From an uncultured Lentisphaeria bacterium (GTDB lineage Bacteria; Verrucomicrobiota; Lentisphaeria; Victivallales; Victivallaceae): a stretch of DNA of 55,099 nucleotides. A model generated the notes under the pieces. That model did no database searches, had not been told where the DNA came from, and was given only the letters and a program-made list of their open reading frames with translations. The stretch covers positions 1 through 55,099 of the forward strand of contig CAIKZE010000090.1 of NCBI GenBank assembly GCA_903831825.1, in the 5' to 3' direction. The first letter of the stretch is position 1. Each line of letters starts with the position of its first letter. Positions 30 to 23,489 of the stretch are shown here, piece after piece. The translations under genes and the position numbers were made by a program.

Positions 30-83
30 AGTACCACAAGCATCCTGCTTGTGATTTTACTCAAGCTGGAAGCTTGAGGTACT
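30..83 (-). repeat. cloverleaf-like repeat element, copy 0
   Basis: Outer stem AGTACC (30-35) pairs with GGTACT (78-83) and encloses two 8-bp-stem hairpins, at 35-53 (loop TCC) and 60-78 (loop GGA). Read on the minus strand it has the same order as the copies at 13672, 15727 and 16078: hairpin A with loop TCC, then hairpin B with loop GGA. The two loops are complementary to each other. Confidence 0.75.
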
Positions 84-535: not shown

Positions 536-917
536 GGAACAGGGGTCCAAAATGCTGTCAGTTAAAGAAAACCTCAACCGGACGGTCAATTGAAAATTGA
601 AAGTGGAAAATTTAAAGTGAAAAAACAAAACAATAACAGCCTCAAAGGAGTCTCCAAAACCTCGGAAATGTGGTTTTGTTGTAGCGCCGTCCGTATCGGA
701 CGGGGTTTTAAATCTTCCCTCTCAGAGAGAGGGCACTACACCGGAGCATTCTGCACAACAGGTGTCCAAAATGAATAATTGAAAATTGAAAGTGGAAAAT
801 TGAAAATGAAAAAACAAAACAACAATAGCCTCAAAGAGGTCTCCAGGGGCTCGGAAATGTTCAGCAACAGGGGGTGTCCAAAATATGCGGATGGGGTGTC
901 CAAAATCTTGGGGTTCT

Positions 918-11093: not shown

Positions 11094-11203
11094 CTGTCTT
11101 GAGAAATCCCCGTCCGAGACGGACGGCGCTACACCACAACCGCCCGACTCCGACACTTTGGAGTGCCGTTGAGCGGGAGTTTCAGTGGATTTTCCGGCGA
11201 CAC

Positions 11204-11237
11204 CCCAGTCCTCCCAGTCCTCCCAGTCCTCCCAGTC
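11204..11237. repeat. 9-bp minisatellite CCCAGTCCT, 3.8 copies
   Basis: Three exact copies (11204, 11213, 11222) and a partial fourth. Confidence 0.9.
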
Positions 11238-11253
11238 TCCCATCGTCTTCCGG

Positions 11254-11423
11254 CGACTCCGACACTTTGGAGTGTCCTTGAGCGGAATCGTATTCCGCAA
11301 TGGAGGGTTGTGCTCTGTCACAACCGCCCGACTCCGACACTTTGGAGTGTCCTTGAGCGGAATCGTATTCCGCAATGAAGGGTTGTGCTCTGTCACAACC
11401 GCCGGACTCCGAGACTTTGGAGT
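11254..11423 (+). repeat. 75-bp tandem repeat, each unit carrying three hairpins
   Basis: Units start at 11254 and 11329, nearly identical, with a third, diverged partial unit from 11404. Each full unit contains an ACTCC-N8-GGAGT hairpin, GCGGAAT/ATTCCGC and GGTTGTG/CACAACC. Confidence 0.88.
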
Positions 11424-11714
11424 CCGGTTGAACAGAGCGTTTTTCATTTTTAACTTTTCTTGCTTTTCTCGCTTTCCACTTTTCTCGCTCCTTCACACTC
11501 CGACACTTTGGAGACCACGCCAGCACAATTATTTTTTACCACAGAGGCACAGAGACACAGAGAAAACTTTTTACTTTATCTTTGCTCCACCAACTTCTAA
11601 CTCCTAACTTCTAACTTCTAACTTCTGTTCTCATAAACATTTCCGAGTCCTGGAGAGCTTTTCTGCATAACATATTCCTCTTTTTAACATCTGCGTCCAT
11701 CTGTGACATATCCG

Positions 11715-11851
11715 CATTCTGGACAATTTGGACATCCCCGGTGCAGGGTACCGTTGTATGGCGGTTTTGCCAAAACCGCCTGGCTTGCCAGTTTCGGCGA
11801 AACCGGCATACTGTCCGAGCTTTTGGAGACCTCTTCAGCACAACGTTTTTC
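11715..11851 (-). repeat. 137-bp module, inverted copy of 402-535
   Basis: Read on minus it repeats the order of 402-535: CCAAAAGCTCGGACAG, the GCCGGTTTCG hairpin, the GGCGGTTTT hairpin, then CCAAATTGTCCAGAATG. The two copies lie about 11.3 kb apart in opposite orientation. Confidence 0.85.
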
Positions 11852-11901
11852 AACTTTTCTCACCTTTCTTCTATAATCTTTTCACCCGTTCCGGGTTTTT
11901 C

Positions 11902-13445: not shown

Positions 13446-13757
13446 TTTAGCTTTGGCGTTTTCGTTGCTTGAATACCGGAGTTAATATGTCGCTCCGCTG
13501 GAGCTGAAATTTATTTATGGGATTTTGGGCTATTAATATTTCGCGCCGCTGGCGCTTTTGAACGAAGAATACAGCCGGTTTTACCATGAAGAACATGAAG
13601 AGAATGAAGGCGGCATCAAGCGTTTATAGTAGCAATAAGGTGTGGGATTGTGCGACTCTGACAGAGTCGAAAGTACCTCAAGCTTCCAGCTTGAGAAGAA
13701 GTCGCAAGCAGGATGCTTGCGGTACTCTGGGCATATCGTGCCGATATGCCTTTCCGC
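13446..13757 (+). repeat. about 312-bp long direct repeat, copy 1
   Basis: Nearly identical by eye to 15500-15812 (offset about 2054 bp), beginning at TTAGCTTTGG and ending at CTTTCCGC. The two copies flank the alpha/beta hydrolase gene. Contains 9-bp-spaced ATGAAGAAC/ATGAAGAGA words and a run of four hairpins. Confidence 0.9.
13653..13750 (+). repeat. cloverleaf-like repeat element, copy 1, with flanking hairpins
   Basis: Hairpin CGACTCT/AGAGTCG (13653-13669); outer stem AGTACC (13672) with GGTACT (13721-13726) enclosing hairpin A (13677-13695, loop TCC) and hairpin B (13704-13720, loop GGA); then a 9-bp stem GGCATATCG/CGATATGCC (13730-13750). Confidence 0.8.
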
Positions 13758-14150
13758 TGGAGCTTTTGCTTCCGATGATGATTAAGCATTTAAGAGATGC
13801 CAACGGCATCAAACGTTTATAGTACCAAAATCTTGTGCGCCTCCGCCAGTTTTTCCCGTACCTCTGTTGCTTCATTGTTTTTATGGGGTAAATTAGAGTT
13901 GAATCAGCTTTTTTACGAGGTAAATTACGAGCAGATAATAGTTCTATTTTCGGGGATAAGGAAGGAGAGTGATAATACTACAAAAGCCTTCATGGACTTA
14001 GTCCGTCGGGGAGTCATTCCCGGCAGTCCGAAAAAACGATTTTTCCGGAGTTCCATCCGGACAGCGGCAAAACGGCGAACCATAGTCGAATACCAGACTG
14101 CGGCTCGACAGACGGATTCAAACTTCAGTTAACTCAGAAAGAGACATCTA

Positions 14151-15404
14151 ATGAAAAATAAATTGATTATTCTTATGCAAAAACTGGCAGTGGCAAGCGG
14201 ACTGATGATAGCATTTTCAGCGAACACCGTACTGAGCGAAAACATTGTGCCGGCAGACTTCCGGGAGGTAACAAGCGGCGTCAAATATCAATTGATCGGC
14301 GAATACAGTATTGAAAGATTAAACAAGATACTTACCAGTGAACTCGCTGATTTTTCCAGCTTTCCCATGACGTATCCGCCGGCGAAGAACGCGGTTAAAC
14401 TTTACAAAGTTATCTACGGCACAGTCATCCCGGAAGACAATAACCGCCCGGTTCAGGTTTCCGGCCTGATAGCTGTTCCGGAAATAGCCTCGACGAAGCT
14501 CCCCGTGGTGTCTTATCAGCACGGAACAGTATTTGCGCGCGACGAAGTGCCCTCATGCATTGAGAAATCAATGGAGACCAGACTGATTATAGCGCGGTTT
14601 GCCGGTCAGGGTTATATCGTAATTGCGGCTGATTATATTGGCAAGGGCGTCTCAAACGAACCTGACAGTTGGCTGGTAAAAGAAAGTACCGCACAAGCCT
14701 GCCTGGACATGCTGCTTGCATCAAGGGCTGTCTGTTCGGACTTGAAAATCACTCCTCTGGAATTATTTCTCAGCGGCTGGTCACAAGGCGCATTCAGCAC
14801 GTCAGTATTTTTAAATCGCCTGGAAAAAATTGGAATACCGGTCAAGGCGGCGGCGGTGGCCAGCGCTCCGAACGATATTTACCTGTGCGTTAATCGCTGG
14901 ATTCATGTCCCTTCCAAACTTGACGTCAACTGGCTGGTGGCAACGTCCGCGATGCTCGTGAACTCCTACGAAAACTACTACAAAATGCCCGGCCTGACCG
15001 CGGCGGCAATAAAACCGGAATATTTGCAGACGGCGCGCGAGTTTTGCAGTAATCGAATGAGCTGGGAAGACGCGGAAAAGAAATTGCCGGCTAAAGTCAA
15101 GGATTTGTTTCAGGAAGAATTCATTAACCAGGGATCGCTGGTGGCGAACCGTTTCTTTCAGCAATTGCAGTTGAATTCCTCCTATAACTGGCGCTTCAAG
15201 ACTCCGGTATATTATTACTACGGCACGATTGATGAAGTGGTGACCCCTTATATGGTACAATTGCCGGTTGAATACCAGCAGACACTGGGCGCGGCTAAGG
15301 CGCAGGCGATATTTGCCGGTGGAAACGCCAATCATCGCGGGACTTTCGTCTTTGCCGTCAACAATCAAAAGCAGCAGTTCGACGAATTACGCAGCACAAA
15401 GTGA
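14151..15404 (+). CDS. secreted alpha/beta hydrolase (lipase/esterase-like)
   Basis: Predicted exported serine hydrolase of 417 residues. A signal peptide is likely (residues 1-29, hydrophobic core ASGLMIAFSANTVLS). Alpha/beta-hydrolase features: oxyanion-region YQHG (122-125), nucleophile elbow GWSQG with Ser211, probable Asp361 in YYGTIDEVVTPY and His395 in GNANHRG. The arrangement resembles secretory lipases (LIP family), but substrate cannot be fixed from sequence. AAGAGA precedes the ATG. It is a lone gene enclosed by two about 312-bp direct repeats, suggesting duplication or insertion as a cassette. Confidence 0.8.
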   Translation: MKNKLIILMQKLAVASGLMIAFSANTVLSENIVPADFREVTSGVKYQLIGEYSIERLNKILTSELADFSSFPMTYPPAKNAVKLYKVIYGTVIPEDNNRPVQVSGLIAVPEIASTKLPVVSYQHGTVFARDEVPSCIEKSMETRLIIARFAGQGYIVIAADYIGKGVSNEPDSWLVKESTAQACLDMLLASRAVCSDLKITPLELFLSGWSQGAFSTSVFLNRLEKIGIPVKAAAVASAPNDIYLCVNRWIHVPSKLDVNWLVATSAMLVNSYENYYKMPGLTAAAIKPEYLQTAREFCSNRMSWEDAEKKLPAKVKDLFQEEFINQGSLVANRFFQQLQLNSSYNWRFKTPVYYYYGTIDEVVTPYMVQLPVEYQQTLGAAKAQAIFAGGNANHRGTFVFAVNNQKQQFDELRSTK

Positions 15405-15499
15405 TATTCTGATCTTCAGGCTGTGGAATGATCACGGTTGTCCTTCGCGGCAACTCAAAAGCTTATTGGGGAGCGGCTTCGGCGGCATCGGTGTCGCAA

Positions 15500-15812
15500 T
15501 TTAACTTTGGTGTTTTCGTTGCTTGAATACCGGGGTTAATATGCCGCTCCGCTGGAGCTGAAATTTATTTATGGGATTTTGGGCTATTAATATTTCGCGC
15601 CGCTGGCGCTTTTGAACGAAGAATACAGCCGGTTTTACCATGAAGAACATGAAGAGAATGAAGGCGGCATCAAACGTTTATAGTATCAATAAAGGTGGAG
15701 AATTGTGCGACTCTGACGGAGTCGAAAGTACCTCAAGCTTCCAGCTTGAGAAGAAGTCGCAAGCAGGATGCTTGCGATACTCTTGACATATCATGCCGCT
15801 ATGTCTTTCCGC
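15500..15812 (+). repeat. about 312-bp long direct repeat, copy 2
   Basis: Second copy of 13446-13757, same orientation, with a few substitutions and one short indel. Confidence 0.9.
15708..15805 (+). repeat. cloverleaf-like repeat element, copy 2
   Basis: CGACTC/GAGTCG hairpin (15708-15724); outer stem AGTACC (15727) with GATACT (15776-15781, one pair weakened); hairpins with loops TCC and GGA; a partly decayed GACATA/TATGTC stem at 15785-15805. Confidence 0.75.
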
Positions 15813-15952
15813 GCCCCCCTCTTCATTACTTTCATGTTCTTCATGGTGAAGCCGGTGAATTGTGACTGGTGACTGGTTACTGGTAAAAAACAGAAAGGTA
15901 AAAAAGATTTCCTCTGCGGCTTTGTGGCTTAGTGCGAGAAACAAAGATTTGA

Positions 15953-16216
15953 TTTATGACGGGATTTTGAGCTATTAATATTTCGCGCCGATGATTAAGC
16001 ATTAAGAGATGCCGACGGCATCAAACGTTTATAGTATCAATAAAGGTGGAGGATTGAGCGACTCTGACGGAGTCGAAAGTACCTCAAGCATCCTGCTTGA
16101 GCAACTAAAACGGAGAAGTCGCAAGCAGGATGCTTGCGGTACTCTGGACATATCGTGCCGATATGTCTTTCCGCGCCCCCCTCTTCATTACCTTCATGCT
16201 CTTCATGGTGAAGCGC
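15953..16216 (+). repeat. mosaic third copy of the long repeat
   Basis: Shares GGGATTTTGAGCTATTAATA with the left part of the long repeat, then jumps to the ATGATTAAGCATT tail known from 13776, then returns to the cloverleaf region. The internal deletion and reordering indicate modular assembly. Confidence 0.7.
16059..16167 (+). repeat. cloverleaf-like repeat element, copy 3
   Basis: CGACTC/GAGTCG hairpin (16059-16075); outer stem AGTACC (16078-16083) with GGTACT (16138-16143); hairpin A CTCAAGCA/TGCTTGAG (loop TCC) at 16083-16101; hairpin B at 16121-16137 (loop GGA); GACATATCG/CGATATGTC at 16147-16167. Stem changes relative to copy 1 are compensated on both sides. Confidence 0.8.
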
Positions 16217-16265: not shown

Positions 16266-18218
16266 TTACCCTACCGTGGCTCCGCTGACGAAGGGGCCGT
16301 CAACAGTAATCAGCTTCAGGTCTTTGCCGTCTTTGGCGGCCAGCAACATGCCCTGCGATTCCACGCCGCGGATTTTGGCCGGTTTCAGATTGGCTACCAC
16401 GACAATGATCTTGCCGGTGATTTCCTCCGGGGTGTAGTATTGCGCCACGCCGGCGACCAGTTGCCGGACTTCTTTGCCGATTTCAATCTGCAATTTCAGG
16501 AGTTTGTCCGCGCCTTCGATCCGCTCCGCCTTGATTACTTTCGCGGTGCGGAGCTGCGTTTTAAAAAATTCATCGATGGTGATTATGCCTTCAACGGGGG
16601 CTTCGGTCTTTACTTCCGGCGGTTTCACGGTTTTATCGGCGGCGGGCTTCTCCGCCAGTTTTTCCTCTTCGGTTTTGATGCGCAAAAACAGCGCGTCAAT
16701 ATCGGTCATTTGCAGACCGCTGAGCACATTTTGTTTATTATTCAGATCGGAGATGCGGCAATCCGTAAGCTGCGCCTCCGGGATTCCGAGGACCCGGCGC
16801 AGTTCAACCATTTTTTGCGGCATAACCGGATAGAGCAGCACTGACACATTCCGCAATATTTCGGCGGAATAATAGAGGACGGAATTGAGCCGGTCAATGC
16901 TGCCGGTTTTAGCCAGCGTCCACGGGGCGGTTTTCTCCAGATAGCGGTTGCCGGCGCGGACGACATTCATGATTTGCGCGATGCCGTGTTCCAGTTTCAT
17001 TTCGGTGATGGCCTTTTCCATTTCCGGGATCGCGCCGCGAATGATTTCCTTCAATTCGGTTTCATTGTCCGTTTCGACATGCGGGACCGGAATGACGCCG
17101 CCGCAATTGCGCAAAGTCATCTTGACCACGCGGCTGAGCAGGTTGCCCAGGTCATTGGCCAGGTCGCAGTTGTACCGGTTGATAAAAGCGTCTTCGCTGA
17201 ATACGGCATCCTGTCCCAGCGACATTTCCGCCATCAGGAAATACCTGAAAGCGTCAACGCCGTAAGTCTGGACCAGATCCATCGGGTTGACGACGTTGCC
17301 GCGCGATTTGCTCATTTTTTCAGCGCCGATCATCCACCAGCCGTGAGCGAAAATTGTTTTCGGCAATTCCACGCCCATCGCCTTGAGCATCGTCGGCCAG
17401 TAAACGGTATGGGTAGTGAGAATGTCTTTGCCGATCAGATGATAAGAGGCGGGCCACCATTTTTTGAACATCGCCTCGTCAGTGCCGTAACCGACGCCGG
17501 AAATATAGTTGATCAAAGCGTCGAACCAGACATAGCAGACGAAATCGGAGTCAAACGGCAGTTCGATGCCCCAGTGCAGTCTGGATTTGGGGCGGGAAAT
17601 GCAGAGGTCGCCGAGCGGATTCCGCAGAAAGCCGAGCGTTTCATTGGCCCGGAATGCGGGCTGAATGAATTCCGGATGGGTCTTGATATGGTCAATCAGC
17701 CAATCCTGATACTGGCTCATCCGGAAGAAGTAATTGGATTCAACGATCTCCGAGGTTTCCCTGCCGCAGCTTTCTTCCGGGCATACGGTGGAACCGCTCA
17801 AATCCTTATCCGTAAAAAAGCGTTCGCAGTGAACGCAGTATCTGCCTTTGTACTCATTCTTATAAATCAGGCCGCGGTCATAAAGATCCTGGAGTATCTT
17901 TTGGACAACGGCTTTGTGTTCGGGGTCGGTGGTGCGGATAAATTTATCGTTGGTAATCTCCAGCTTCCGCCATAATTCCTTGAATCTGGTTACCGTTTCA
18001 TCGCAATGCGCCTGCGGAGTGAGATTATTTTTTTCGGCGGCCTTCTGTACTTTCTGTCCGTGTTCATCGGTACCGGTCAGAAAAAAGGTGGGAATGCCAA
18101 GCGAGCGGTGATACCTGGCCAGCACATCCGCCAGAATCGTGGTATAGGCATGGCCGATATGCGGACGGTCATTGACATAATATATTGGCGTCGTTATATA
18201 AAAATTACCATTTTCCAT
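16266..18218 (-). CDS. metG: methionyl-tRNA synthetase
   Basis: Charges tRNA-Met. Class I synthetase motifs: PIYYVNDRPHIGHAYTT (HIGH) near the N-terminus and KMSKSRGNVV in the middle. The connective domain shows one CVHC...CPEESC zinc knuckle. An anticodon-binding helical domain is followed by a Lys/Pro-rich linker and a C-terminal EMAP/Trbp111-type tRNA-binding domain (about residues 545-650, ending GVESQGMLLAAKDG). Length 650 is usual for the tRNA-binding-domain-fused form. ATG at 18218 is preceded by AAGGGGG at a long spacing of about 13. It is a lone minus-strand unit ended by a hairpin at 16239-16256. Confidence 0.96.
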   Translation of the reverse strand: MENGNFYITTPIYYVNDRPHIGHAYTTILADVLARYHRSLGIPTFFLTGTDEHGQKVQKAAEKNNLTPQAHCDETVTRFKELWRKLEITNDKFIRTTDPEHKAVVQKILQDLYDRGLIYKNEYKGRYCVHCERFFTDKDLSGSTVCPEESCGRETSEIVESNYFFRMSQYQDWLIDHIKTHPEFIQPAFRANETLGFLRNPLGDLCISRPKSRLHWGIELPFDSDFVCYVWFDALINYISGVGYGTDEAMFKKWWPASYHLIGKDILTTHTVYWPTMLKAMGVELPKTIFAHGWWMIGAEKMSKSRGNVVNPMDLVQTYGVDAFRYFLMAEMSLGQDAVFSEDAFINRYNCDLANDLGNLLSRVVKMTLRNCGGVIPVPHVETDNETELKEIIRGAIPEMEKAITEMKLEHGIAQIMNVVRAGNRYLEKTAPWTLAKTGSIDRLNSVLYYSAEILRNVSVLLYPVMPQKMVELRRVLGIPEAQLTDCRISDLNNKQNVLSGLQMTDIDALFLRIKTEEEKLAEKPAADKTVKPPEVKTEAPVEGIITIDEFFKTQLRTAKVIKAERIEGADKLLKLQIEIGKEVRQLVAGVAQYYTPEEITGKIIVVVANLKPAKIRGVESQGMLLAAKDGKDLKLITVDGPFVSGATVG

Positions 18219-20311: not shown

Positions 20312-21360
20312 AAAACGCGAAGGTCACAATCGAGTTCCCCTATGACGGCGCGGTATTGAACAGACATCACGGCGATGAGACCGCCCGCGGCTTGAAGATC
20401 ACGGTCAAAGGCAAGGCCGCGCCCGATACCGAAATCGACATAAACGGGATCAAGGCATTCTGCGCCGACGGTTCTTTCGACGCCAATATCGAACTGAAAG
20501 AACGTTTCAATACGCTAAAAGTAAGTTCAGGGCAGGAACAACGGATAATTTCCGTGATATGGGACAAAAATTCATTCAAGCGCTATAATTTCTTCATTGA
20601 CGATAATATTTTCTTCCTGACCGAAATCTACAAGAAATGTTATGCGTCAATCTTCGAGTCATTTTATCTGGCGAAACTGAAAGAGTTCAATACCAGATAC
20701 GGCACTAAATTCGTGTTGAATATCTTTTTCAGGAACGACCATGAACCGTTCGAATTGAGCCAATTTCCCGATAAGTATAAAGCTGAATGGGAAGCTAACG
20801 CCGACTGGCTGAAACTGGCGTTCCACGCTTTTTCCGAATTTCCGGCGCGGCCGTACAGCGAGCATTTCCCGGAAAAACTGCCGGAACACTATGAGCTGGT
20901 TAAAGAGCAGGTTATCCGTTTCGCGGGGGAGAGGACTTTCTGCCCGCCGACGATTATCCATTATTACGAGGTTTCATCCCCGGCGTCGCTCAAATATCTG
21001 AAGGACAACGGCGCCGCCGCCCTGGCTGCGAGAATTTTCCCGGAGGCCGCGGAAAAGGCCTTGACCAATATCATTTATGAACGTGAAAATGATTTATTCA
21101 GAATGCCGTCGGACTTCTTCTGCAATCTCTGCACCGTTGAACAAATCAAAGACCTGGTTGGAAAATTAACGTCAAAAACATGGAAAGACACCATCGATAT
21201 CGGCACCCATGAGCAATATTGCTACCCGTTCTACGCCAACTACATCCCGGACCATTTTGAAAGGATGGAAACCGCGATAAGACTGGTGACGGAAAAAGGT
21301 TACAAGCCGGTATTTTTCCATGAAGGGTTACTGGGAAACTTGGAAGCCGTTCAAAAATAA
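20308..21360 (+). CDS. unknown protein, polysaccharide-deacetylase-like, translationally coupled to pepF
   Basis: 350 residues, not firmly recognised. Residues about 1-88 look like a beta-sandwich Ig-like domain (VTIEFPYDGAVLNRHHGD, GAAPDTEIDINGI style). The rest alternates strand and helix with motifs reminiscent of NodB-type deacetylases: FFIDDNIFF (paired Asp), FVLNIFFRND, LKLAFHAFSEFPARPY and PPTIIHYYEVSS, ending with GYKPVFFHEG. No signal peptide, so probably cytoplasmic. Start is GTG at 20308, overlapping the pepF stop by four bases. A 103-bp palindrome follows the stop and separates it from the convergent kinase gene. Confidence 0.6.
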   Translation: MKNAKVTIEFPYDGAVLNRHHGDETARGLKITVKGKAAPDTEIDINGIKAFCADGSFDANIELKERFNTLKVSSGQEQRIISVIWDKNSFKRYNFFIDDNIFFLTEIYKKCYASIFESFYLAKLKEFNTRYGTKFVLNIFFRNDHEPFELSQFPDKYKAEWEANADWLKLAFHAFSEFPARPYSEHFPEKLPEHYELVKEQVIRFAGERTFCPPTIIHYYEVSSPASLKYLKDNGAAALAARIFPEAAEKALTNIIYERENDLFRMPSDFFCNLCTVEQIKDLVGKLTSKTWKDTIDIGTHEQYCYPFYANYIPDHFERMETAIRLVTEKGYKPVFFHEGLLGNLEAVQK

Positions 21361-21370
21361 CCCTGACACC

Positions 21371-21473
21371 TTCGCGATTCTCCCGAATGCTTTTGTGTTT
21401 GCCAGTTCGTTACATACCTTCAGGTATGCGCCTTGCTGGCAATTCCCAAAATCACCTCGGGATATTTCGCGAA
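21371..21473 (+). repeat. about 100-bp imperfect palindrome, copy a
   Basis: Nested paired segments around centre about 21421: TTCGCGA/TCGCGAA, TCCCGA/TCGGGA, TTTTG/CAAAA, GCCAG/CTGGC and core CATACC-ttca-GGTATG. Same family as 43882-43979 (opposite strand) and 54976-55074. Between two convergent genes, so it may act as a bidirectional terminator, though no T-run follows. Confidence 0.82.
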
Positions 21474-21491
21474 ACTTGACAGGTTTATTTT

Positions 21492-23489
21492 TTAAACAAC
21501 TTCTTCTGAGTTTGCAGTTTCAGACAGATCAACGCGGCGGACGGTCTTGGGCAGAAAAACGTAGAAGGCCGTGCCTTTGCCGACTTTGCTTGTCACCTGC
21601 ACCCAGCCGTGATGGTTGGAAACCGTGCCGTAGACCATCGCCAGCCCCATGCCGGTCCCTTTGCCGATCGGTTTGGTGGTGAAGAACGGTTCGAAAATTC
21701 GCAGCATGGTACTCTTGTCCATCCCGCTCCCGTTATCCTCAATCATGATACAATAGTAATCTTCCGGGTGGACTTTGACCTTGACGCCGATCGGTTTCAA
21801 GGTGACATTGAATTTTTCGGCGGAATCCACTTTTACCACCAGCCGCATATTTTTGTCGCCGTTGTTTTCCATGGCGTCCCTGGCATTGATGAGCAGATTG
21901 ATGAGCACCTGCTGCAATTGAACTTTATCGCCGCGGATCGGCATTTCACCGTCGGCGACATTCACGATCAAATCCAGGCTTTTCTGGCTGTTAGGCAGGA
22001 AAAGTTCAGTGCTTTTTCTGATCAGCTCGCTCAAATCCAGAATGGTTTCCTGATATTTGCCTTTTCTGGCGAATCCCAGAAGCTGCTCGGTGAGCCGGCC
22101 GGCCTGTTCGGATATCTCGGTGATTTTGTCCAGATGCTTGGACACTTTCGGGTCATCGAATTTATAAAACAGCCGGATCAGGTCGAGATGGCCGAGAATG
22201 GCATGGATGTGATTGTTGAAATCGTGAGCGACGCCGCCGGCAAGCTGCCCGACCGCTTCCAGCCGCTGGGAATGGGCAAGCTGTTCGCTGAGCATTTCCT
22301 TTTCACTGGCCAGCCGGCTCTCCTCAGTGATATCCCGTCCCAGCAGCACCTGCATTTTGACGTCTTTAAATTCGATTGAAGAAAGCGAGATGTCCAGATG
22401 AAGCTGGTCTTTCTCCTGGCCGAGATAGCACTTGAAGTGATTGGTATTGACCCTGGTGGCGGTGTCCTGCATGTTTCGTGGCTCCTTCGGCTGCATCATG
22501 GGCATCAGCGGCAGCCGGTTTTCAGTCCGCAGCATCGCCAGGAAATTAGCGCCGATGATTTCCTTTTTCGTTCTGGCTTTAAGCATCCCGATAGCGGCAT
22601 AATTGGCGTCAATGATGCATCCCTGCTGGTCCAGCAGCATAATCATTTCACTGGCATTTTCAACCACCATGCGATAGCGGCCTTCCCATTCACGGAGATT
22701 ACGCTCAAGTATCTGGGCCTTGCCGTAACCGCCCAGAAAGGCGAAAATAATATCCAGAGTGCCGCGCGGCTCGTTGGCGACCTCTTTTTCAACCAGAAAC
22801 AGATAGATCGAAATAAGCGCGCTGATCCAGACGGTGGCGACAGATTTGATCAGGAACGAATTATTAATATACAGCCACCATTGCGGGCGGTCCCAGTAAG
22901 CCACCGACAGATAGATAAAAGAATCAATCAATTGAGTAAACAGCATGGCGCCGAGAACACAGAAAAAAACGCGGCAGTTAGCATTGCGCAGACGCTGGAA
23001 AAAGATCGGCAGCAGAAACAGGTCGAAAAGTTGAGCCAGAGTGGACGCGGTCATGGAACGCCGGGATTGCTGCAACAGGAAATCCAGCGAGTCCGCGGAA
23101 GTGCCCTGTGAAATCGCAAACCCCAGCCAGTTGCATTGCAGACTGGTCAGCGTGCTCAAATAAACGAAAAGCCCTAAACCGGCGACGGCGCCGGTAATCA
23201 TCCGCTGCGCCTCCAGCGTCCCTTGCGTCGCATACACCAGCATCAACGCGCCCAGATACGGCAGAAAAAGCGCCGTCGGGCCGATGCTGAAGTTGAGATT
23301 TGCGGAAAAAACATTGACGTTCAATTCCGCGGCGCTGACGAACTGGGTAAACACAAACAGCAGTCCGACCGCGACATAGAAAGCGGCATTGCCGATGACC
23401 TTCCGCTGATTGTGAAGCAAGGCGAGGCCGACAAACACAAAAGTCATTTCCAGGAACGTCAGGAGTACAGCATAAAAGCTTTCCAACAT
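21492..23489 (-). CDS. membrane sensor histidine kinase with VUT/YhhQ-like input domain and PAS
   Basis: 665 residues. Residues 1-235 form about seven membrane helices; the pattern ([55 protein letters not shown]) resembles VUT_1/YhhQ-type vitamin-uptake proteins used as sensors. Then a PAS domain (about 271-390), HisKA with [20 protein letters not shown] (phospho-acceptor His422) and HATPase_c motifs [17 protein letters not shown] and [11 protein letters not shown]. No receiver domain is attached and no response regulator is nearby. TAAGGC seven bases before ATG 23489 overlaps the mcsB stop, so it is probably in the mcsA-mcsB transcript. Confidence 0.85.

Follow-up and report, generated by a model that had tools for sequence, protein, structure and literature searches.

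Systems in which REPs, or REPINs built from them, accompany a RAYT gene have already been described, as have Y/Z heterodimers, complementary stem variants and genomes with several RAYT/REP pairs (PMC2817692, PMC3116915, PMC3733652, PMC6006769). In a REPIN, a short spacer separates two inverted REPs; the element is extragenic and high in copy number, and is linked to one RAYT; remnant-like singlets and paired stem changes also belong to the picture (Bertels and Rainey 2011, PMC3116915). Why REPs favour heterodimers has been described as not obvious, and escape from enzymatic removal, for example by SbcCD, has been suggested (PMC3733652). Here we analysed a stretch of 55,099 nt from an uncultured Lentisphaeria bacterium (contig CAIKZE010000090.1; hereafter the window) and searched the 5.9-Mb genome to which it belongs (506 contigs). 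Four repeats in the window, with the family they belong to, share all the REPIN features listed above, and the repeats are very probably REPINs of a high-copy REP family mobilised by a RAYT of the same genome. A seemingly unknown fold is now explained by a REP/REPIN system, and none had previously been recognised in this genome.

Re-reading of the window sequence located all four copies where an earlier note had placed them, at 30-83 on the minus strand and at 13672-13726, 15727-15781 and 16078-16143 on the plus strand. Each copy is one 22-nt unit, AGTACC-N-CAAGC-N-TCC-N'-GCTTG, followed by a short spacer and the same unit in opposite orientation. Because the unit is repeated in inverse, the AGTACC/GGTACT ends and the TCC/GGA loops are complementary; the loops could pair, as had been proposed, but only through hairpin B being an inverted copy of hairpin A. 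The motif CAAGCWTCCWGCTTG, with the core CAAGC-N-TCC-N-GCTTG, occurs eight times in the window at up to two mismatches, compared with 0.43 expected from shuffles (largest count, 3).

The copy at 30-83 is a heterodimer of a Y unit (62-83, minus strand; AGTACCTCAAGCTTCCAGCTTG) and a Z unit (30-51, plus strand; AGTACCACAAGCATCCTGCTTG), and it lies at the contig end, where the first 87 nt are identical to contig C16. The second heterodimer (Y, 13672-13693, plus strand; Z, 13705-13726, minus strand) is found downstream of a Fic-domain gene. A third, at 15727-15781, lies between convergent genes and is the one decayed copy that had been recognised: its Z head has become AGTATC, GATACT breaks the outer stem, and GACATATCATGCCGCTATGTC carries two mismatches. 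The copy at 16078-16143 has an enlarged spacer and is a homodimer at the apical pair, with A..T in both arms; its neighbours are again convergent, a hydrolase-like gene (14151-15404, plus strand) and metG (16266-18218, minus strand). The paired change from CAAGCT/AGCTTG to CAAGCA/TGCTTG is indeed present at 16085-16099. It makes the core of hairpin A equal to that of hairpin B in the same element, so arm-to-arm copying is as good an account as stepwise compensation, and the equal apical pair in both arms may reflect such copying. The other paired change, GGCATATCG..CGATATGCC (13730-13750) to GACATATCG..CGATATGTC (16147-16167), is also real and belongs to a companion palindrome, not to the REPIN hairpins; single-change intermediates of the GGCATATCG stem (GGC..GTC and GAC..GCC) occur elsewhere in the genome.

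The copies at 13672, 15727 and 16078 are not independent observations, because they lie within a larger duplicated block. This mosaic block is duplicated in a tandem-like fashion and contains other palindromes. Its first copy (13446-13757, plus strand) carries the REPIN at 13672 together with the CTCCGCTGGAGC and CGCCGCTGGCGC palindromes, its second (15500-15812, plus strand) carries the REPIN at 15727 in pieces 92-97% identical to the first, and a third is partial. Directly upstream of the REPIN at 13672 stands the companion palindrome GCGACTCTGACAGAGTCG (13652-13669, plus strand), which recurs at 15707-15724 and 16058-16075 and in contig C463; just downstream stands GGCATATCGTGCCGATATGCC (13730-13750, plus strand), which recurs at 15785-15805 and 16147-16167 and, adjoining REPs, in contigs C463 and C69. 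The GRCATATCG..YC and GCGACTC..GAGTCG palindromes are found essentially only with the mosaic block (C90, C463, C69), and the CTCCGCTGGAGC/CGCCGCTGGCGC region of the block is dispersed across same-genus genomes. The local cluster (13446-16214) would represent later growth by ordinary segmental duplication. Another abundant palindromic repeat, ACTCCGA..TTTGGAGT(G)..GTTGAGC, is present in the window (588-860 and 11135-11857) and in many contigs, where it forms arrays and hosts REPIN insertions. Window positions 21353-21494, L023:514-654 and L045:2353-2521 are also related to one another; L045 carries a REPIN at the point where the other two have a different small palindrome (CATACCTTCAGGTATG).

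Throughout the genome, AGTACCNCAAGCNTCCNGCTTG matched 166 times at up to three mismatches, compared with none for a reversed-pattern control. From 40-odd genome stretches we collected 156 units of the pattern AGTA[C/A]C-N-CAAGC-N-TCY-N'-GCTTG-N', each made up of a 7-bp hairpin with a TCC or TCT loop and, at its foot, a short head (A-GTAC-C or A-GTAA-C). Head-out doublets, 62 in number, account for 124 units, and the other 32 stand alone. The 22-nt core units of a doublet are about 4-22 nt apart (exactly 10 nt in 34 of 62), and doublets in arrays have a period of 58-122 bp. Nearly all doublets are heterodimers: one unit has apical T..A and the other A..T in 54 of 62, while both have A..T in two. 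The commonest heads among the 156 units are AGTACC (92), AGTAAC (28) and AGTATC (8), which differ from the canonical head of the GTAG superfamily, GT[AG]G. Only 11% of the units fall within ORFs of at least 200 codons, compared with 62% of random positions. Within the genus, the copy number is 162 in G000, 81 in G002 and 11 in G001, and it is 0 in most of the family.

A search of the genome with PF01797 identified nine Y1 loci. One is a RAYT whose frame is cut by a contig end (C284:23643-23993); an exact 141-nt overlap with the end of C260 yields one open frame, and the gene is read here as a join of these two contigs. No other intact copy of it was found in the genome. REP-pattern matches lie on both sides of the gene, six upstream (C260:7095-7319) and four downstream (C284:23542-23677), and the last residues of the protein (GTQASSLEKTN) are REP sequence translated in frame. 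The protein matches Pfam Y1_Tnp (PF01797; 1.7e-9, above the cut-off), and its sole match in the PDB is 4ER8, the E. coli TnpAREP (8.8e-5). REP_Tyr_transpos (NF047646) is the best NCBIfam model, at 69.8 bits and below the curated cut-off of 80. Both an NHVH (HUH) motif and a YIRNNP motif with the catalytic tyrosine are present. Other Y1 proteins were considered as the mobiliser and rejected. No CAAGC REP lies near the IS200-like TnpA genes at C379 and C427, and the copies at C162 are 1.2 kb off, which favours C260/C284; the Y1 protein of C248 is ~1 kb from a doublet and does not have REPs on both sides. The three IS200-like genes encode proteins of ~160 aa of the MANxYHQIYIQ type and are flanked by short palindromes, e.g. 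CCCCGACGGGGTG or GAGCCTACGGCTC.

The closest homologues of the RAYT, ~49-67% identical, come from records named Bacteroidetes, Ignavibacteria, Pontiellaceae, Planctomycetota and Opitutaceae. In Kiritimatiellota, Ignavibacteria, Planctomycetota and others, homologous RAYTs have flanking REPs that follow the format of our family with different but compensated stems, GTAG heads among them. GTANC-headed hairpins are eight times denser near 25 homologous RAYTs, with a near zone that includes the gene itself, than farther off (39 in 40.4 kb versus 8 in 66.7 kb, p = 2e-10). When 25 RAYT-linked units from several phyla were compared, they showed a common register, the head GTA and the loop TC[CT], and five of the seven stem pairs were changed on both sides; 99.4% of positions are paired versus 73.7% in shuffles, and there are 47 double-change cells versus 10.6. 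Across 61 genomes, a RAYT match is present in six of the eight with at least five CAAGC REPs and in 13 of the 53 others (p = 0.009). In G001 and G032 this REP is present and the RAYT was not detected, as expected of relics or incomplete assemblies.

Some homologous RAYTs reside within other genes. At L109, L110, L112, L113, L115 and L120 (Bacteroidota/Ignavibacteria), the RAYT and its REPs lie in frame inside an ORF for an Eco57I/TaqI-type restriction-modification methylase, confirmed with Pfam for all of these loci apart from L115. The place is the same in all, between '..FYTPREIVNYMVDESL' and '..KILDPACGSGAFP', and the frame is unbroken. In Pontiellaceae, the RAYT is in frame within a radical-SAM/DUF4080 ORF and a Fic-family ORF (L111, L114). 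A literature search found no report of RAYT in-frame insertion in such ORFs.

The question of which pairing is selected was addressed with 47 distinct doublets. Their two local hairpins are 99.1% paired even as the closing pair varies (T-A, C-G or A-T in one arm; G-C or A-T in the other) and the apical pair is T-A, A-T or G-C. The whole structure contains 36 double-change cells compared with 11.3 in shuffles; the copies share descent, so these counts are not independent and shuffle statistics overstate significance within one genome, and the cross-species comparison is the stronger test of covariation. The outer "cloverleaf" helix is 86.5% paired and lacks covariation, and its fifth pair fails in 24 of the 47 because the AGTAAC subfamily retains GGTACT. 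With the arms joined in one long hairpin, 77.8% of positions are paired, covariation is not above shuffles and four columns are unpaired in 43-47 of the 47; the Y and Z units differ at exactly these columns. For three of the four window copies the single long REPIN hairpin has the lowest energy, but pairing and covariation rule it out as the fold under selection. Since the local hairpins are kept while the outer stem and the long hairpin fail, selection acts on the single REP hairpin. The earlier note had proposed selection for a folded strand. This stands insofar as the window copies form good single-strand folds (z-scores -5.9 to -7.8, DNA parameters) and their hairpins are kept by paired changes, but not as a cloverleaf with a selected outer stem.

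These pair counts largely rule out a cloverleaf or three-way RNA. A structured RNA of this or a kissing-loop kind, cis-acting or small, with the outer stem and loop-loop pairing under selection, would suit the good single-strand folding and the possible transcription of the copies at 15727 and 16078, which are located between the 3' ends of convergent genes. It is nevertheless very improbable, given the outer stem without covariation, the solitary units (32 of 156), the same-format units adjoining RAYT genes across phyla and the absence of a family match in Rfam, where the search returned one chance hit (E = 0.58) far below the gathering score. In kind, the fold is of a known type, REP doublets tied to a RAYT gene; a match to a known REP family is what the earlier note had named as refuting its reading. 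If local segmental duplication were the whole story, a 300-bp block in three copies would have acquired the paired changes by chance. This view draws on the similarity of the duplicated blocks that hold the copies at 13672, 15727 and 16078, and on companion palindromes whose only other locations are C463 and C69. The 166 units are spread over many contigs without the block, however, and covariation exceeds every shuffle both in the 47 distinct doublets and across species. This explanation is next to impossible and is refuted as a full account, but it still explains the local cluster.

Related sites without a REP bear on mobility. The flanks of a doublet in C85 (L042:3215-3268) match repeat copies that lack the doublet in C191, C145, C154 and other contigs; there the left and right flanks are contiguous, ~77-89% identical across the junction, and no duplicated target is evident. 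As sequence comparisons, these sites support either insertion or clean loss, and being paralogous repeats they could also be deletions. No unique orthologous empty site was found in same-genus genomes, because the flanking sequence is repeated and dispersed. The repeats could instead be MITEs that derive from a classical DNA transposon, bounded by AGTACC/GGTACT terminal inverted repeats and target-site duplications. Such an origin would fit their short length, high copy number and inverted ends, and the multiple families in the genome. We consider it highly improbable: doublet flanks have no direct repeat of constant length, the REP-free sites have no duplicated target, the conserved and covarying unit is a single hairpin and not the ends, and the linked transposase is of the Y1/HUH type. 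It is also unlikely that a host-selected REP function (3' mRNA stabilisation, transcription termination or gyrase/IHF binding) keeps the copies, with RAYT mobility being only historical. Such roles have been proposed for REPs elsewhere (PMC3733652), and they would fit the 89% of units outside long ORFs, the three window copies downstream of gene 3' ends, and the 11 REPs retained in G001, where the RAYT was not detected. Yet tandem arrays, near-identical copies and the restriction to certain lineages (G000 and G002, with most of the family at 0) look like recent amplification, and the RAYT linkage would be left unexplained.

We then propose a mechanistic model for REPINs mobilised by a RAYT. 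The RAYT on C260/C284, a Y1 transposase of the TnpAREP type with HUH and tyrosine motifs, would mobilise the REP family surrounding its own gene. By analogy with characterised TnpAREP, it would bind the hairpin and head of one strand when the DNA is single-stranded, as happens in replication, then cut beside the hairpin and rejoin it elsewhere; its family suggests that it is an active enzyme and may be so at present. Drift of the hairpin sequence along with the enzyme, under the need to stay paired, would give rise to the paired changes, and the complementarity of the outer stem and of the loops would be a by-product of the inverted-repeat arrangement.

One doubtful extension is that the GTAC family represents a natural case in which the guide changed from GTAG to GTAC and the cut site of the RAYT changed along with it. 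Work with one RAYT and engineered substrates showed that a GTAC guide shifts the cut to GA or GT (PMC8266576), and by this rule a cut at G[A/T] is predicted. Of the GTAC-headed units, 43 of 52 Z and 22 of 30 Y units have G[A/T] immediately 3' of the hairpin; G is also the commonest base in front of AGTAC, which places GA directly 5' of GTAC. Against such a co-change, GTAA-headed Y units misfit the rule (AG follows in 18 of 25 and CAA precedes in 22 of 25, where TT or TA would be expected), the copies are related, and Pontiellaceae GTAC REPs do not have G[A/T] there. Among RAYTs, the residue after W (Q95 equivalent) shows no clear pattern with the fourth head base.

The genome holds four RAYT/REP pairs, which makes it a good place to study RAYT specificity. 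The second RAYT (C298:34200-35270; L060) lies just after the end of an apparent type I restriction-modification hsdS. It has a REP family of its own with GGGA[A/T]C heads, GCCAATC/GCCACT stems and TCC-type loops, and its own REPs are translated in frame at both ends of the gene and between the HUH and tyrosine motifs. The third (C280:22519-23426; L061) is flanked by GTAG-headed REPs; a genome search with GTAG[N]GCCGTCCGT[N]TCGGACGG gave 133 matches (43 forward, 90 reverse), of which two fall in the window (681-703 and 11110-11132), and the control gave none. The fourth, a RAYT-like gene (C170:26540-26872; L059), is bordered on each side by a repeated palindrome of its own (GGTTATGCTCCGTCATAACC).

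Together, our results indicate that the GTAC- and GTAA-headed units are a new REP/REPIN family of an ordinary kind of element. A literature search found no paper that joins REPs with Lentisphaerae. The family provides a dataset on whether guide tetranucleotide and cut site evolve together, and on why REP doublets are heterodimers, as the units differ exactly where a long hairpin would be completed and each keeps its own.

Compared with IS200/IS605 elements, the system shares a Y1/HUH enzyme, a hairpin with a 5' guide tetranucleotide and insertion without target duplication, but the RAYT scores 25.8 against an IS200 model cut-off of 55, and the repeated unit is a hairpin pair rather than a gene-bearing IS. 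Among TnpAREP proteins, N-H-V-H and Y-I-R-N-N-P fit both subclass 2.4 and subclass 2.7 of class 2 (PMC6006769); REPs in frame in the RAYT gene, the hallmark of subclass 2.4, are seen in relatives and in the second RAYT of the genome, whereas the YIxNNP motif also fits 2.7, and the RAYT has W-M instead of the usual W-Q. With the GTAG-superfamily REPs and the Y/Z REPs of E. coli BIMEs (PMC3733652, PMC2817692), the family shares a tag with a short-stem hairpin, complementary-stem subtypes joined as heterodimers, inverted dimers, tandem arrays, placement downstream of genes and a REP-flanked RAYT. Its tag, however, is GTAC (also GTAA and GTAT) instead of GTAG or GTGG, and 'GTAC' is absent from the text of PMC3733652. 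Finally, the two sides of a Pseudomonas REPIN pair into one long hairpin (PMC3116915), whereas here each REP keeps its own hairpin.
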